Part shown: positions 21,823-28,953 of the stretch, in pieces
Position numbering within the stretch: the first letter of the stretch is position 1
Layout: the number at the start of each line of letters is the position of its first letter
DNA from: Alphaproteobacteria bacterium
GTDB lineage: Bacteria > Pseudomonadota > Alphaproteobacteria > Micropepsales > Micropepsaceae
Assembly (NCBI GenBank): GCA_016792565.1
Contig: JAEUMK010000035.1
Span: 1 to 35,920 of the forward strand
Direction: 5' to 3'
Length of the DNA: 35,920 nucleotides
The notes under the pieces: generated by a model
Database searches by the model: none
Told to the model about the DNA's origin: nothing
Seen by the model: only the letters and a program-made list of their open reading frames with translations
Translations under genes and position numbers: made by a program

Positions 21823-22737
21823 TTAGGCGTCGCCGATCCGCTTGATCTCCCATTCGAGGTCCACGCCGGTGGCCGCCTTCACCGCCGCGCGAACCTCTTC
21901 GCCCAAGGCCTCAATTTCGTTTCCCTTTGCTTCAGAAAGGTTAACGAGGAAGTTACAGTGAAGATCGGAAACCATGGCGTTTCCGCGCCTCAGGCCTCGG
22001 CATCCGGCCGCATCTATGAGTTGCCATGCCTTGCGTCCGCCACTTCCGGCGGGGTCCGGATTCTTGAACGTCGAGCCGCCCGTCCGCGTCTTGATCGGCT
22101 GGCTCGCCTCGCGCTTGGCGGTGATCTCGTCCATCGCCGCGCGGATCGCAGCGGGATCGCCCGGCCGGCCCTGGAACAACGCCTCGACGAAGATCAGATC
22201 CTCCGGCGCCTCGCTATGGCGATAGGTCATCTTGAGGTCGGCGGGCGTGAAGGATCTGAGGTTCCCCGCCCCGTCCACGGCGAGCGCCTCGACCAGCGCG
22301 TCCTTGAACTCGCCGCCATAGGCGCCCGCGTTCATGCGCAGCCCGCCGCCGATCGTCCCCGGAATGCCGCGCAGGAATTCCAGCCCCGCGATCCCGGCAT
22401 CGGCCGCGACCCGCGCCGCCGCCACGTCCAGCGCCGCCGCCCCGGCGCGCAGGCGATGGCCGTCCTCCGCGCTCACCTTGCCGAACGCCGCGCCCAGACG
22501 GACGACGACGCCCCTGACGCCGCCGTCGCGGACCAGCAGGTTCGAGCCGACGCCGACCGTCATCACCGGCACGTCCGCCGGTTTTGCCTTCAGGAAGGCC
22601 TGCAGGTCGGCGACGTCGGCCGGACGGAACAGCACCTCGGCCGGCCCGCCGGCGCGGAACCACGTCAGATCGCTCATCGGCGCGTTCGCGGTATAGGCGC
22701 CGCGCACCTTGGGCAGGCGTGAGACGAGATCGCTCAT
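21823..22737 (-). CDS. murB: UDP-N-acetylenolpyruvoylglucosamine reductase
   Basis: 304 residues, a type II MurB. It reduces UDP-GlcNAc-enolpyruvate to UDP-MurNAc with NADPH and FAD. FAD-binding motifs are [15 protein letters not shown] near 62-76 and [20 protein letters not shown] near 123-142. The catalytic Ser is in GGSTFKNP, and the C-terminal HCNFLVN is also conserved. The ATG overlaps the murC stop as ATGA. All key regions are intact. The spacing to ddl is the one loose junction in this part of the cluster. Confidence 0.95.
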
Positions 22738-24137: not shown

Positions 24138-25222
24138 CGCCCCAGCGCCTCGATCGCGTCGGCCATCGCCTCGGCCGCGTCGGGCCGGCCCAGCCCCTTC
24201 GCCGCATCGGCCATCGCGGCGAGCCGCGCGGGGGCGGCGACGAGGCCCTCGATCGCGCGCGCCACGGCGTCGGCGGTGAAGGCGGGTTGGGGAATCATCG
24301 TCGCGGCTCCGGAATCGGCCAGTACGCGCGCGTTGTAGCTCTGATGGTCGTCCGTGGCGAACGGATAGGGCACCAGCAGCGACGGCCGCCCCATCACCGT
24401 CAGTTCGGCGCAGGACGAGGCGCCCGAGCGGCAGATCACCAGGTGCGCCGCCGCCATGCGTTCGGGGATGTCGGTGAAGAAATCGGCGGTCACGGCCGCG
24501 ACACCGAGCGCCGCATAGGCCGCGCGCGCCCGCTCCAAATCCTCGCCCCGGGCCTGCTGCACGACATGCAGCCGGGCGCGCAGGGCGTCGGGCAGCAGCG
24601 CCAGCGCGGCCGGCACCACGTCGCTCATCACCCGCGCCCCCTGCGAGCCGCCGAAGACGAGCAGGTTGATCGGTCCCTCGGCCCCCGGCGGCGCATAGGG
24701 CGTCGCCTTCTCGACGATCGCCGGGCGCACCGGATTGCCGACGAGGATGGTTTTCGAGGCGGCGTTGGCCGGCAGCAGATGCGTGCCGGGAAAGGCGACG
24801 GCGATCTTCGTCACCCGTTTGGCGACGAGCCGGTTGACCCGCCCGAGCAGGGCGTTCGCTTCGTGCAGGATCGAGGGCGTGCCGGTCAGCCGCGCCGCCA
24901 GCATCGAGGGCAGCGCCGGATAGCCGCCGAAGCCGACGACGGCGAGCGGCTTCTCCCGGCGGAAGGCGGCGCGCGCCTGCATCACGCCGCGCAGGATCTC
25001 GATCGACGCGGCGGCAATCTTGATGGGATTGCGCCCGCTGAAGGTCGCCGAGCGGATCGGCAGCAGCTCGGCCCCGGGCACCTTGGCGGCGAAGGCCGCG
25101 CCGCGCGGGTCGGTCGCCAGCAGCACGCGGTGGCCGCGCGCCATCAGCGCCTGGGCCGTCGCCTGCGCCGGAAATGTGTGTCCGCCCGTTCCCCCCGCCG
25201 CGATGACGATGGGCCGGCTCAC
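24134..25222 (-). CDS. murG: Lipid II synthase (UDP-GlcNAc transferase) MurG
   Basis: 362 residues from a GTG that overlaps the ftsW stop as GTGA. MurG adds GlcNAc to lipid I at the inner face of the cytoplasmic membrane. The N-terminal glycine loop AAGGTGGHTFPAQA contains the catalytic His; HEANALLGRVNRL, VFGGSQGARVMSD and CRSGASSCAELTVMGRPSLL are the family motifs. The donor-binding end LVPYPFATDDHQSYNA is intact. It is encoded between ftsW and murC, as in most dcw clusters. Confidence 0.95.
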   Translation of the reverse strand: MSRPIVIAAGGTGGHTFPAQATAQALMARGHRVLLATDPRGAAFAAKVPGAELLPIRSATFSGRNPIKIAAASIEILRGVMQARAAFRREKPLAVVGFGGYPALPSMLAARLTGTPSILHEANALLGRVNRLVAKRVTKIAVAFPGTHLLPANAASKTILVGNPVRPAIVEKATPYAPPGAEGPINLLVFGGSQGARVMSDVVPAALALLPDALRARLHVVQQARGEDLERARAAYAALGVAAVTADFFTDIPERMAAAHLVICRSGASSCAELTVMGRPSLLVPYPFATDDHQSYNARVLADSGAATMIPQPAFTADAVARAIEGLVAAPARLAAMADAAKGLGRPDAAEAMADAIEALGR

Positions 25223-26352
25223 CGCAGCGCTCTCCTCCGCCGTGCGCCGGGGCGCTTGCGGGTGAGGGCGATGAGGCAGCCGACGCTGAGGGCCAGCGCC
25301 AGGATCGACGAGCCGCCATACGAAATGAAGGGCAGCGTCATGCCCTTGGCGGGAATGAGCTGGAGGTTGACGGCCATGTTGATGACCGCCTGCAGGCCGA
25401 GCATCACCGCAAGGCCGGCGGCCGCGATCTGGGAGAACGCATCGGGGCACTGGACGCTGCGATGGAGCGCCCGCAGCACCAGAAAGCAGAAGACCGCCGC
25501 CAGAACCATGCAGGCGGCGAGGCCGAACTCCTCGCCCACCACCGCCATGATGAAGTCGGTATGGGCGTCCGGGATGCTCGCCTTCACCGTGCCCTCGCCC
25601 GGCCCGACGCCCAGGAAGCCGCCGTTCTCCAGCGCCCGCATGGCGCGGTCCACCTGGTAGGTGTCGCCGCTGTCGGGGTTGAGGAAGCGGTCCACCCGGC
25701 TCTGCACGTGCGGAAAGAAGAGATAGGCCATCACGGCCGCGCCGGCGCCTGCCGCCAGGAAGACGCCCATGATCCAGATCGAGATGCCGGCGAAGAACAG
25801 CAGCGCGCCGAACGTCGCGGTCACCAGAAGCGTCTGGCCGAAATCGGGCTGCTGGATCAGCATGGCGACGAACGCGCCGTAAAGCAGGAGGCCGGCGATC
25901 AGTCCGGCCGGTTTGCCGGTGCGCTGCCACTGGGCGAGGCAGGCGGCGCACAGCACGACGAAGGCCGGCTTGGTGAATTCGGACGGCTGGATCGACAGCG
26001 GCCCGAAATCGAGCCAGCGATGCGCGCCCTTGACCTCCGGCCCGATCGCGATGGCGAGCCCCATCAGCACGAGGCCGCCGAAGAACCCGGCCAGGGAGAG
26101 GCGGCGTATGTCGCGCAGCTTCAGCAGCGAGACCAGCATCATCACGCTGAGCGCCAGGGCCGCGAAGACGATCTGGCGCGAGACGAAGTGGAACGTATCG
26201 TAGCGCAGCTTCTCGGCGATGGCCGGGCTCGCCGCCATGCCGATCAGGACGCCGGCGAACATCAGCGCCGAGACCGTGGCGAACAGCCAGCGGTCGGACG
26301 TCCACCACCATTCCGCAAGGGCGCTGCGGTTGGTGCGATCGAATGTCATCAT
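25219..26352 (-). CDS. ftsW: Septal peptidoglycan glycosyltransferase FtsW
   Basis: 377 residues with about ten membrane helices, a SEDS-family polymerase working with FtsI. SEDS hallmarks are the RWLDFGPLSIQPSEFTKPAF segment around residues 115-135 and the C-terminal PAKGMTLPFISYGGSSILAL. The periplasmic loop between them holds the catalytic Asp region (HTDFIMAVVGEEFG). The ATG at 26352 overlaps the murD stop; a second ATG is three bases later. It is FtsW rather than RodA on the strength of its context between murD and murG. Confidence 0.95.
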   Translation of the reverse strand: MMTFDRTNRSALAEWWWTSDRWLFATVSALMFAGVLIGMAASPAIAEKLRYDTFHFVSRQIVFAALALSVMMLVSLLKLRDIRRLSLAGFFGGLVLMGLAIAIGPEVKGAHRWLDFGPLSIQPSEFTKPAFVVLCAACLAQWQRTGKPAGLIAGLLLYGAFVAMLIQQPDFGQTLLVTATFGALLFFAGISIWIMGVFLAAGAGAAVMAYLFFPHVQSRVDRFLNPDSGDTYQVDRAMRALENGGFLGVGPGEGTVKASIPDAHTDFIMAVVGEEFGLAACMVLAAVFCFLVLRALHRSVQCPDAFSQIAAAGLAVMLGLQAVINMAVNLQLIPAKGMTLPFISYGGSSILALALSVGCLIALTRKRPGARRRRALR

Positions 26353-27860
26353 GCTGCGGCCGCCGCTCCCTCGCCCCGTTCGAGCTCGGCGACGATGCGA
26401 CGGAAATGGTTACCGCGTTCTTCATAGTCCTGGAACTGGTCGAACGAGGCGCAGGCCGGCGACAGCAGGACGACCGGGTTCTCGGCCGTCTCGGCCTGGG
26501 CCTCGGCCAGGGCCTCGCGCGCCGCGGCCTCCAGCGTGCCGCAGCGGCTATAGGCGACGCCGGCCTTCGCCAGCGTCTCGGCGAAGTCGTCCGCCGCCTG
26601 TCCGATGAGATAGGCGCGGGCGATGCGCGGGAAGTAGCGCTTCAGGCTCTCGATGCCGCCCTCCTTGGCGACGCCGCCGATGATCCAGTGGATGTCGCCC
26701 GGATAGGCGGCCAGCGCCTTCTCGGCGGCGTCGGCATTGGTCGCCTTGCTGTCGTTGAGGAAGCGCACCTTGCCGATCTTGCCGACCGCCTCCAGGCGGT
26801 GCGGCAGGCCGGCGAACGAGGCGAAGGCGCGGCCGATCGCCTTGGGGTCCTTGATGTAGCCGCGCACCGCGGCATAGGCGGCGGCGGCGTTCTCCCAGTT
26901 GTGCGCGCCGGTCAGCGTGGCGACGCCCTTGAGATCGGCGATCTCGGCCGGCGGCGAATAGAGCCCGTCATAGAGGACGCCGTCGAGCGCATAGATGCCG
27001 CGCCCGACCACCCGGTCGACCGCGACCGGCGCGACCGAGGGGCCGCCGCGCCCCGAGACCGCCGTGCAGGTTTCGGCCGCCGCCGGGGTATCCACGCCGA
27101 TGACCGCCAGATCGCCCTGCCCCTGGCGCGCGAAGATGCGCCGCTTGGCGGCGATGTAGCCGTCCATGCCGCCGTGCCGGTCGAGATGGTCCGGCGTGAT
27201 GTTCAGCAGCACCGCGACGTTGGGCTTCAGGCTCGGCGTCAGGTCGAGCTGGTAGGACGACAGTTCCAGCACGTAGATCGTGCCCTCGCGCGGGGCGCCG
27301 AGTTCCAGCACCGGCTTGCCGATATTGCCGCCGACCTGGGCGTCCCAGCCGTTCCGCGCCAGGAGATGCCCGATCAGCGCCGTCGTCGTCGACTTGCCGT
27401 TGGTGCCGGTGATGCAGATCAGCGGCGTCTTTGCTTTCGAACCGTTACCGTTGCCGTTGCCCCTTAACCCGTGGGTAGGGTTAACCGTTCCTTGCGAAAA
27501 AAAAGCCGGCCCGCCGTTGCCGTTGAAGTGCCCCATGGCCTTCAGCGTGCGGCAGAACAGCTCGATGTCGCCGATGATCTCCACGCCATGCGCCTGCGCC
27601 GCCAGCACGACGTCGTGCGGCCTGGGGTGGGTCAGCGGGATCCCGGGCGACAGGACGAGCGCCCTGACCTCGCTCCACGACCAGTGCGCGGGATGGACGA
27701 GGGGTATCTCGCCATCCGCCGCCGCCCGGCCGCGCTCGTTGTCGTCCCAGGCGACGACGTTCGCGCCGCCCGCCTTCAGCGCCCGCGCGGCGGCGAGGCC
27801 CGACCGCGCCAGGCCGAAGACCGCGACGGTTTCATTGGGAAAGAGCGGAACGGGGATCAC
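26349..27860 (-). CDS. murD: UDP-N-acetylmuramoylalanine--D-glutamate ligase
   Basis: 503 residues, longer than the usual 450-470, starting at GTG four bases after mraY. MurD adds D-Glu to UDP-MurNAc-L-Ala. N-terminal VAVFGLARSGLAAARALKAG binds UDP, the P-loop ITGTNGKSTTTALI is near residue 150, and LLNITPDHLDRHGGMDGYIA and VRFLNDSKATNADAAEKALA are family motifs. Between the first domain and the P-loop (about residues 108-145) lies an odd Asn/Gly-rich insertion (GNGNGNGSKAK, AFFSQGTVNPTHGLR) that I do not recall in other MurDs. Its DNA is less GC-rich and contains a run of eight A/T bases. The frame is intact and the catalytic residues are present. Confidence 0.95.
   Translation of the reverse strand: MIPVPLFPNETVAVFGLARSGLAAARALKAGGANVVAWDDNERGRAAADGEIPLVHPAHWSWSEVRALVLSPGIPLTHPRPHDVVLAAQAHGVEIIGDIELFCRTLKAMGHFNGNGGPAFFSQGTVNPTHGLRGNGNGNGSKAKTPLICITGTNGKSTTTALIGHLLARNGWDAQVGGNIGKPVLELGAPREGTIYVLELSSYQLDLTPSLKPNVAVLLNITPDHLDRHGGMDGYIAAKRRIFARQGQGDLAVIGVDTPAAAETCTAVSGRGGPSVAPVAVDRVVGRGIYALDGVLYDGLYSPPAEIADLKGVATLTGAHNWENAAAAYAAVRGYIKDPKAIGRAFASFAGLPHRLEAVGKIGKVRFLNDSKATNADAAEKALAAYPGDIHWIIGGVAKEGGIESLKRYFPRIARAYLIGQAADDFAETLAKAGVAYSRCGTLEAAAREALAEAQAETAENPVVLLSPACASFDQFQDYEERGNHFRRIVAELERGEGAAAAA
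27425..27535. repeat. Low-complexity insertion inside murD
   Basis: Within murD, a stretch of lower GC content holds a CGTTGC-type hexamer repeat (27442-27460, coding Asn-Gly), a 7-bp inverted repeat TTAACCC/GGGTTAA (27464-27470 with 27478-27484), an A8 run (27497-27504) and a second CCGTTGCCGTTG piece near 27513-27524. The repeat units bracket the hairpin and the A-run. It looks like a small inserted or slippage-expanded element that kept the reading frame. Confidence 0.6.
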
Positions 27861-27864
27861 GGCG

Positions 27865-28953
27865 TCACCTCAGTTTGAGCGTCGACAGGCCGATGAGCGC
27901 GAGGATCACCGCCACGATCCAGAAGCGGATCACGATGGTGGGCTCGGCCCATCCCTTTTTCTCGTAGTGATGATGGATGGGGGCCATGCGGAACACCCGC
28001 TTGCCCGTCAGCTTGAACGAGGCGACCTGCACGATGACCGAGAGCGCCTCGACCACGAACAGGCCGCCGACGATGCCCAGCACGATCTCGTGCTTGGTGA
28101 TGACGGCGATCGTGCCGAGCGTGTCGCCGAGGGCCAGCGAGCCGGTGTCGCCCATGAAGACCATGGCGGGCGGCGCGTTGAACCACAGAAAGGCGAGGCC
28201 GGCGCCCAGCAGCGCGCCGCAGATGATGGCGAGCTCGGCCGTCCCCGGCACGGCGTGGATCTGCAGATACTCCGCGAAGTTCAGGCTGCCGACGAGATAG
28301 GCGATCAGGCCGAAGCAGGCCGCCGCGATCATCACCGGCACGATGGCGAGGCCGTCGAGCCCGTCGGTCAGGTTCACGGCGTTCGAGAAGAGCACGATGA
28401 CGAGCGTCGCGAAGACGATGAAGCCGTAGCCGAGGGGGACGAGGAAGTCCTTGAAGAACGGCACCGCGACCCCGCCCGACAGGGCCGCCGGGTGCCACTC
28501 CATGATCAGCCACGAGGCGGCGATCGCGCCGGCGAACTGCACCAGCAGCTTCAGCTTGCCCGAGACGCCGTCGGCCTTCTGCTTCGTCACCTTCAGGTAA
28601 TCGTCGTAGAAGCCGAGCACCCCGAACAGCGCGGTCACGCCCAGCACGATCCAGACATAGCGGTTGGAGAGATCGGCCCAGAGCAGAGTCGCCACGAAGG
28701 CCGAGATCAGGATCAGCAGGCCGCCCATCGTCGGCGTGCCCTTCTTGCCGACCACATGGGCGTCGCCCATGAAGTCGCGGATCGGCTGGCCCTTGCCCTG
28801 CTTCACCTTCAGCCAGTCGATCAGCGGCCGTCCGAAGACGAGACCGATCAGGAGCGCCGTCATGATCGCGCCGCCGGTGCGGAAGGTGAGGTAGCGGAAC
28901 AGGTTGAAGAGCTGGAAGTCGGCGCTGAGCGGTTCGAGCAGAAGGTAAAGCAT
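27865..28953 (-). CDS. mraY: Phospho-MurNAc-pentapeptide translocase MraY
   Basis: 362 residues with about ten membrane helices. It transfers phospho-MurNAc-pentapeptide to undecaprenyl phosphate, making lipid I. Signature regions are [11 protein letters not shown] near residue 73, [17 protein letters not shown] with the Mg-binding Asp pair, [25 protein letters not shown] and the [20 protein letters not shown] motif near the end. The gene lies nine bases after murF and four before murD. It is normal in length and complete. Confidence 0.97.

Follow-up and report, generated by a model that had tools for sequence, protein, structure and literature searches.

A genus-specific insert in MurD with a nucleotide-constrained core, a possible intragenic CtrA-type site in an alphaproteobacterial dcw cluster

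The murD gene of an alphaproteobacterium of the family Micropepsaceae contains an in-frame, genus-specific insert that is a real feature, beyond chance, and comparison of the five species of the genus indicates that the DNA of its core is constrained at the nucleotide level beyond what the protein requires. The core most likely functions as regulatory DNA within coding sequence. We tentatively favour, at close to an even chance, the reading that ftsW and the genes downstream are regulated from this core through an intragenic CtrA-type site, placed in a linker that MurD tolerates. A broader scenario, which we regard as possible and hold with somewhat less assurance, is that an essential enzyme gained a lineage-specific disordered insert which was selected for its DNA, namely a cell-cycle regulator site serving downstream division genes, with the peptide as a by-product, and that murB arrived at the same solution for ddl-ftsQAZ.

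The MurD insert and its distribution

The window, by which we mean the whole 35,920-nucleotide stretch of contig JAEUMK010000035.1 that was analysed, encodes a MurD with the Mur ligase domains, the P-loop and the equivalog score by which this ligase is recognised. The gene and the parts of its insert that concern us are as follows.

26349..27860, minus strand: murD, UDP-N-acetylmuramoyl-L-alanine--D-glutamate ligase, 503 aa (TIGR01087, 3.6e-110, 369 bits; Pfam Mur_ligase_M and Mur_ligase_C)
27426..27536, minus strand: genus-specific in-frame insert, residues ~109-145, lying after the N-terminal domain and ahead of the P-loop strand, with predicted disorder (alignment, AlphaFold)
27497..27504, minus strand: T8 tract (A8 on the plus strand) forming the Phe codons TTT-TTT; eight T in four of the species, seven in the fifth

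The initial annotation had described an in-frame, low-complexity insertion of some 25 extra residues before the P-loop of MurD, and alignment with relatives bears out the insertion and its restriction to one lineage, while revising its size to about 30 extra residues relative to Caulobacter MurD. By a hand count on the alignment, the spacing from the conserved D-[IV]-E-L to ITG is 55 residues in the window's MurD; Caulobacter has 25 and many Rhodospirillales records have 19. A search of 61 related genomes for MurD gave 55 positives at E <= 1e-60, 30 of which were retrieved as loci, and the best 80 of 195 confirmed MurD candidates from the genome collection were added to produce an alignment of 110 sequences, of which 109 are distinct records because L032 equals L004. 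The insert is present in 5/5 species of the genus and in 0/104 of the other aligned MurD loci. A MurD tree of 45 sequences, built with the insert columns removed, placed the five insert-bearers in one clade with a support of 1.0, which makes a single gain on the genus stem the simplest history.

AlphaFold returned a mean pLDDT of 88.1 for the window's MurD, with stretches of three or more residues below 50 at 114-117, 121-141 and 501-503; the input alignment of 30 sequences contained just one other insert-bearing sequence (L032), and this shallow depth may partly lower pLDDT there. The model is consistent with the insert being a disordered linker, as predicted, in an otherwise ordinary enzyme. 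At the DNA level, the A8 run, the TTAACCC/GGGTTAA arms and the hexamer repeats on both sides that had been annotated earlier were all recovered in place, with TTAACCC at 27464-27470 and GGGTTAA at 27478-27484 (plus-strand letters), and with AACGGC-type hexamers on either side of the core as CCGTTACCGTTGCCGTTGCC (27442-27461) and CCGTTGCCGTTG (27514-27525). Against a window GC content of 70%, the A8 run stands out as an outlier, and so do the two TTAA tetramers: the 36-kb window has only one other A/T run of at least six, a T7 at 986, and two of the seven TTAA tetramers in the whole window lie inside the insert.

Nucleotide-level conservation of the core

All five species share an invariant core consisting of T7-8, GCAAGG, CGGTTAACCCTA and the second TTAA, and in the codon alignment the codons TTT TTT, CAA, GTT, AAC, CCT and TTA are unchanged, although four core residues vary among the species (S/A, T/P, T/N and H/P). 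Third positions of codons 120-132 are identical at 11-12 of 13 sites in all ten species pairs, compared with 56-73% elsewhere in murD, where 4-fold sites agree at about 49-73%; the window's MurD is 77-80% identical to the MurD of the other four species. When the whole insert is considered (residues 109-145), 4-fold sites are unevenly conserved, agreeing at 44-60% in the four pairs that include one species (G001) and at 71-94% in the other pairs, and the claim of constraint therefore rests on the core and not on its flanks.

Scanning for plain nucleotide invariance over 30 bp failed to pick out the insert, since such a scan is dominated by protein conservation, and the comparison was therefore made on silent sites and A/T words. 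Considering A/T-ending codons at amino-acid-conserved positions, 8/9 in the insert are identical in all species versus 93/344 in the dcw cluster outside it (Fisher 2.5e-4), with 6/7 in the core alone (P 0.0024) and, in five-species columns only, 6/7 in the core versus 25/74. For codons ending in G or C, the insert does not clearly depart from the remainder (4/7 versus 1516/3384). Two overlapping windows at murD 119-139 contain the maximum number of conserved A/T-ending codons among 5492 twenty-codon windows, at 7 versus a mean of 0.35. The codon TTA is used once among the window's 5778 dcw codons, in the murD core, where it is invariant across species, and the product of smoothed same-codon baselines for six rare codons of the core, picked after being seen, is 6.6e-6. 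Word counts in the cluster alignment, limited to columns with at least four species, gave ten distinct TTAA sites, three of which, a pair in murD and a single one in murB, are kept in every species, and 20 conserved out of 461 for other A/T 4-mers, the murD T tract supplying four of these 20. For GTTAAC and for TTAACC the count is 2/2; TTAACC occurs at just two places in this alignment, in murD and murB, and is kept in every species covered. Such dual-coding constraint can readily pass for low-complexity junk or for conservation of the protein.

Candidate CtrA-type boxes and ftsW upstream elements

Two putative boxes in the murD core, the gene that follows murD and a comparable block in murB have the following positions.

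27479..27495, minus strand: box A, CtrA-like GCAA-N7-TTAACC (GCAAGGAACGGTTAACC), 8/10 consensus positions, in 5/5 species, with the layout of the Caulobacter ftsW element
27464..27478, minus strand: weaker possible box B, CTA[C/A]-N7-TTAA, 6-7/10 consensus positions, its TTAA invariant in 5/5 species
25219..26352, minus strand: ftsW, first gene downstream of murD (TIGR02614, 1.4e-102)
21928..21957, minus strand: genus-specific, nucleotide-conserved block in murB containing GTTAACC (GTTAAC at 21940-21945), from a codon-window scan and comparison with relatives

Box A combines an exact TTAACC half with an upstream half, GCAA, that agrees with TTAA at only 2/4 positions, and GCAAGG-N2-CGGTTAACC is found in 5/5 species of the genus. 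Box B begins two bases past the TTAA of box A and reads CTAA-N7-TTAA in the G001 species. With its TTAACC half, its degenerate half and its N7 spacing, the murD element resembles the CtrA-binding sites of Alphaproteobacteria (TTAA-N7-TTAA or the half-site TTAACC). It differs from those sites in having GCAA as its first half, a conserved T tract with no counterpart in the CtrA consensus and a second, weaker box; this putative site lies in an essential ORF, upstream of ftsW by 1.1 kb, within a protein insert restricted to one lineage. The ftsW gene overlaps the murD stop, with zero intergenic room, and the genes following the core are ftsW, murG, murC and murB (dcw gene names other than murD and ftsW come from ORF translations and gene order, not from a family search). 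The murB block (codons 261-286), found by the same scan as the murD core, sits upstream of ddl-ftsQ-ftsA-ftsZ. Its GTTAACCTTTCTGAA is present in all five species of the genus and in 0/25 of the other MurBs retrieved, and the protein there reads VNLSEA in the five species and INxG in most of the 25 others; the codon test is weaker for this block (5/8, P 0.04).

CtrA itself is encoded in the genome (C31:70359-70967), scoring above the cut-off of NF045991 and showing 90% identity to a reference CtrA sequence. Allowing at most one mismatch, TTAA-N7-TTAACC has 51 matches in the genome versus 11 for its reversed counterpart, with certain places counted on both strands, and the genome combines a CtrA gene with a regulon of such sites. 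A one-mismatch CtrA-type site lies ~150 bp upstream of ctrA, and exact TTAA-N7-TTAACC occurs in five regions, including fliP/flgB and hemE; the three others adjoin DUF3237, PhoH-like and PPOX/PCMT genes, among which we know of no CtrA targets. GTTAACCNTNC alone is not enriched genome-wide (6 versus 7 in the control). No sigma-70 consensus promoter was found in 26800-28000, no -10 downstream of TTAACC is evident or conserved by eye, and no intrinsic terminator is predicted at the insert, with one terminator-like match at 27937.

Both the murD and the murB element lie upstream of division genes that count as CtrA targets in Caulobacter: ftsZ, ftsA, ftsQ and ftsW are listed as CtrA-regulated in PMC2877005. 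Full and half (TTAA) CtrA motifs and internal promoters in Caulobacter are described in PMC4287350, a paper that covers ftsQ and from which the word ftsW is absent. The murD core resembles those within-CDS cell-cycle promoters as candidate regulatory DNA in coding sequence that would time downstream operon genes, and differs from them in that its protein has gained a disordered insert, as predicted, housing the putative site. In PMC11264516, non-consensus CtrA sites arranged in tandem, with a few bases between them, raise affinity and repress, and CtrA sites of Hyphomonas are mostly intergenic (211/222) according to PMC7200025. No title among the listed matches for literature on murD and CtrA concerns a CtrA-type site inside murD.

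We propose that CtrA, or another regulator that shares the TTAACC half-site, would bind GCAA-N7-TTAACC, perhaps joined by the weaker adjoining CTAM-N7-TTAA box, and that binding at the murD core would time transcription of ftsW, murG, murC and murB, with the parallel murB site doing likewise for ddl-ftsQ-ftsA-ftsZ. The loop before the MurD P-loop would tolerate the residues that the site happens to encode, and regulatory DNA might be housed there because the murD/ftsW overlap leaves no intergenic DNA. Box A placed at -35 would put the T tract at the place of an UP element; repression or a roadblock at the core is equally possible. If this proposal is true, protein insertions in essential enzymes can carry regulatory DNA, linker inserts in compact operons need rereading, and the murD core offers a testable case of ftsW cell-cycle control from coding DNA, the similar Caulobacter element being intergenic.

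That Caulobacter element emerged from the present comparison. In 9/10 Caulobacter records (L036, L038, L040, L042, L045, L049, L211, L213 and L215), the apparent ftsW ATG is preceded by the pattern [GA]CAA-N7-TTAACCCT, which begins 38-39 bp ahead of it, and the Caulobacter TTAACC lies 27-28 bp from ftsW. The motif is missing from L052, in which ftsW abuts murD, and L057 is also without it upstream of ftsW; L208, L209, L210, L212 and L214, in which no ftsW was found, were excluded from the Caulobacter counts. In Caulobacter sp. BP25 (L211) the sequence before ftsW is GCAAGG-N5-TTAACCCT, identical to the murD element, and in Asticcacaulis (L054) a perfect TTAA-N7-TTAACC (TTAATCCGATATTAACC) stands upstream of ftsW. 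Unlike the intergenic Caulobacter element, the murD element is intragenic, and the 25 family members read outside the genus lack the element near ftsW: TTAACC/GGTTAA within 150 nt before ftsW occurs at 7/61 collection loci with an ftsW start (six Caulobacter, one Asticcacaulis) and at 0/25 of the family loci outside the genus. This absence in sister genera gives no support to straightforward descent from an ftsW element of a common ancestor, and it slightly lowers our confidence in the CtrA-site reading; the likeness may instead reflect convergence on one regulator.

We came upon the Caulobacter match post hoc. In one form, the pattern is exact in 1/12 further genomes and, with at most three mismatches, gives 11 matches in these 12 genomes versus 18 in the reversed control, two of the genomes (L211 and L215) having a variant of the ftsW element that this form misses. 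GCAAGG-N5-TTAACCCT is rare, with seven places in 289 class genomes, its own site included, and two in the reversed control; six of the places are in five other class genomes, and the 3-kb loci retrieved there contain no murD, ftsW or murG match. An alphaproteobacterium of another family (L222, G209:C7:61609-61627) carries an identical GCAAGGAACGGTTAACCCT, with no murD, ftsW or murG match in the 3 kb retrieved. Several kb of other genes separate murD and ftsW in some Caulobacter records (L034, L048 (L211) and L039 (L215)), and in L211 and L215, where ftsW was found, it keeps its own TTAACCCT element.

We consider it unlikely, while worth weighing, that the core is a regulatory DNA site for a factor other than CtrA, such as a nucleoid protein or another response regulator, or an antisense or internal promoter. 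Such a factor would suit the occurrence of GCAA-N7-TTAACCCT once per genome, exclusively in murD, in 5/5 genus assemblies (88-100% complete), and the conserved T tract, GCAAGG and CCCTA, which exceed the CtrA consensus. However, the TTAACC half-sites, the matches upstream of ftsW in some Caulobacteraceae and the CtrA-listed division genes favour CtrA. A CenR site was considered and rejected, as the published motif, TGA-N8-TGA (PMC9275681), is by eye missing from the element.

Slippage, peptide selection and the origin of the insert

An improbable alternative to the CtrA-type site is that U7-U8 forms a programmed or tolerated -1 ribosomal (or transcriptional) slippery site, the two TTAA stopping both shifted frames and a truncated N-terminal fragment of MurD tuning the expression of MurD or of downstream genes. 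In 5/5 species T TTT TTT has the reading phase that a -1 slippery heptamer requires, and in all five a stop follows after 15 nt in the -1 frame and after 30 nt in the +1 frame; both stops occur within 33 nt at 16/403 codon positions of the window's murD. Slippage would in this way account for the T tract and for the shifted-frame stops, yet no pseudoknot-free downstream structure beats shuffles in the sequence of the window or of L006, and two TTAA tetramers that are open in frame can be reasoned to stop both shifted frames about half the time. It also leaves unexplained the conserved GCAAGG, the third positions of CCT and CAA, and the motif resembling that of Caulobacter ftsW.

Selection on the peptide is given a similarly low probability. 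Here FFxQGxVNPxxGL would be a short motif through which the disordered linker binds a partner, such as one from the divisome or a Mur complex, and the conservation of codons would be incidental or reflect slow codons at a domain boundary. The residues FF-QG-VNP-GL are indeed conserved in five species and rare codons do cluster at the domain boundary, but it is the exact rare codons that are kept, not merely any rare codon, and the near-identity of the core third positions persists although four core residues vary.

The idea of a slippage-expanded linker in the initial annotation survives in part, as the AACGGC-type codons flanking the core look slippage-prone and the first-branching member of the genus lacks three codons in this stretch. 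The T7 species differs from the T8 species by base changes (GCT/TCT and TCG/GCG codons) and not by an indel. A neutral, functionless linker expanded by slippage and conserved through recent common ancestry is nevertheless very unlikely for the insert as a whole. The variable number of AACGGC-type hexamers around the core fits it, as do the 4-fold sites of the whole insert, which in the G001 pairs are no better conserved than elsewhere, and the different Asn-Gly-rich linker of ~26 residues at the same place of MurD in another genus of the family (G006; L007). Against it, MurD identity and agreement at other 4-fold sites are at the levels given above, and yet the third positions of the core are almost all identical.

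Rickettsia palindromic elements are dispersed, multi-copy repeats with inverted arms that are inserted in frame in essential enzymes. The TTAACCC/GGGTTAA arms, the in-frame position in an essential enzyme and the restriction to one lineage are shared by the murD insert, and the initial annotation had suggested a small palindromic element of this type. We dismiss it as scarcely credible, given that the insert is single-copy in five assemblies, has arms of 7 bp and no stable fold, loses pairing in one species and, unlike those elements, is constrained in its DNA at a fixed place. BLAST found no second copy of the insert in the window's genome, which the initial annotation had led one to look for. 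With at most three mismatches, the T-tract half of the insert has one match per genome in 5/5 species, and for the palindrome half there is a single additional match at three mismatches, confined to G002, the reversed control also giving one. The dispersed, multi-copy form is thus refuted. A stable RNA hairpin was likewise rejected, with z = -0.41 for the 52-nt core and +1.54 for 81 nt versus shuffles; one pair of the hairpin is broken in G001 by a silent change, and no Rfam family in the window reached the gathering threshold.

Two further observations arose from the MurD loci of the collection. In L074, Asn-Gly-rich, low-complexity, coding-like DNA is present at the apparent C-terminus of MurD, just before ftsW. 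The MurD genes of L076 and L082, MAGs titled Stygiobacter and Marinimicrobia, turn up among alphaproteobacterial ones, possibly through mislabelling or contamination.
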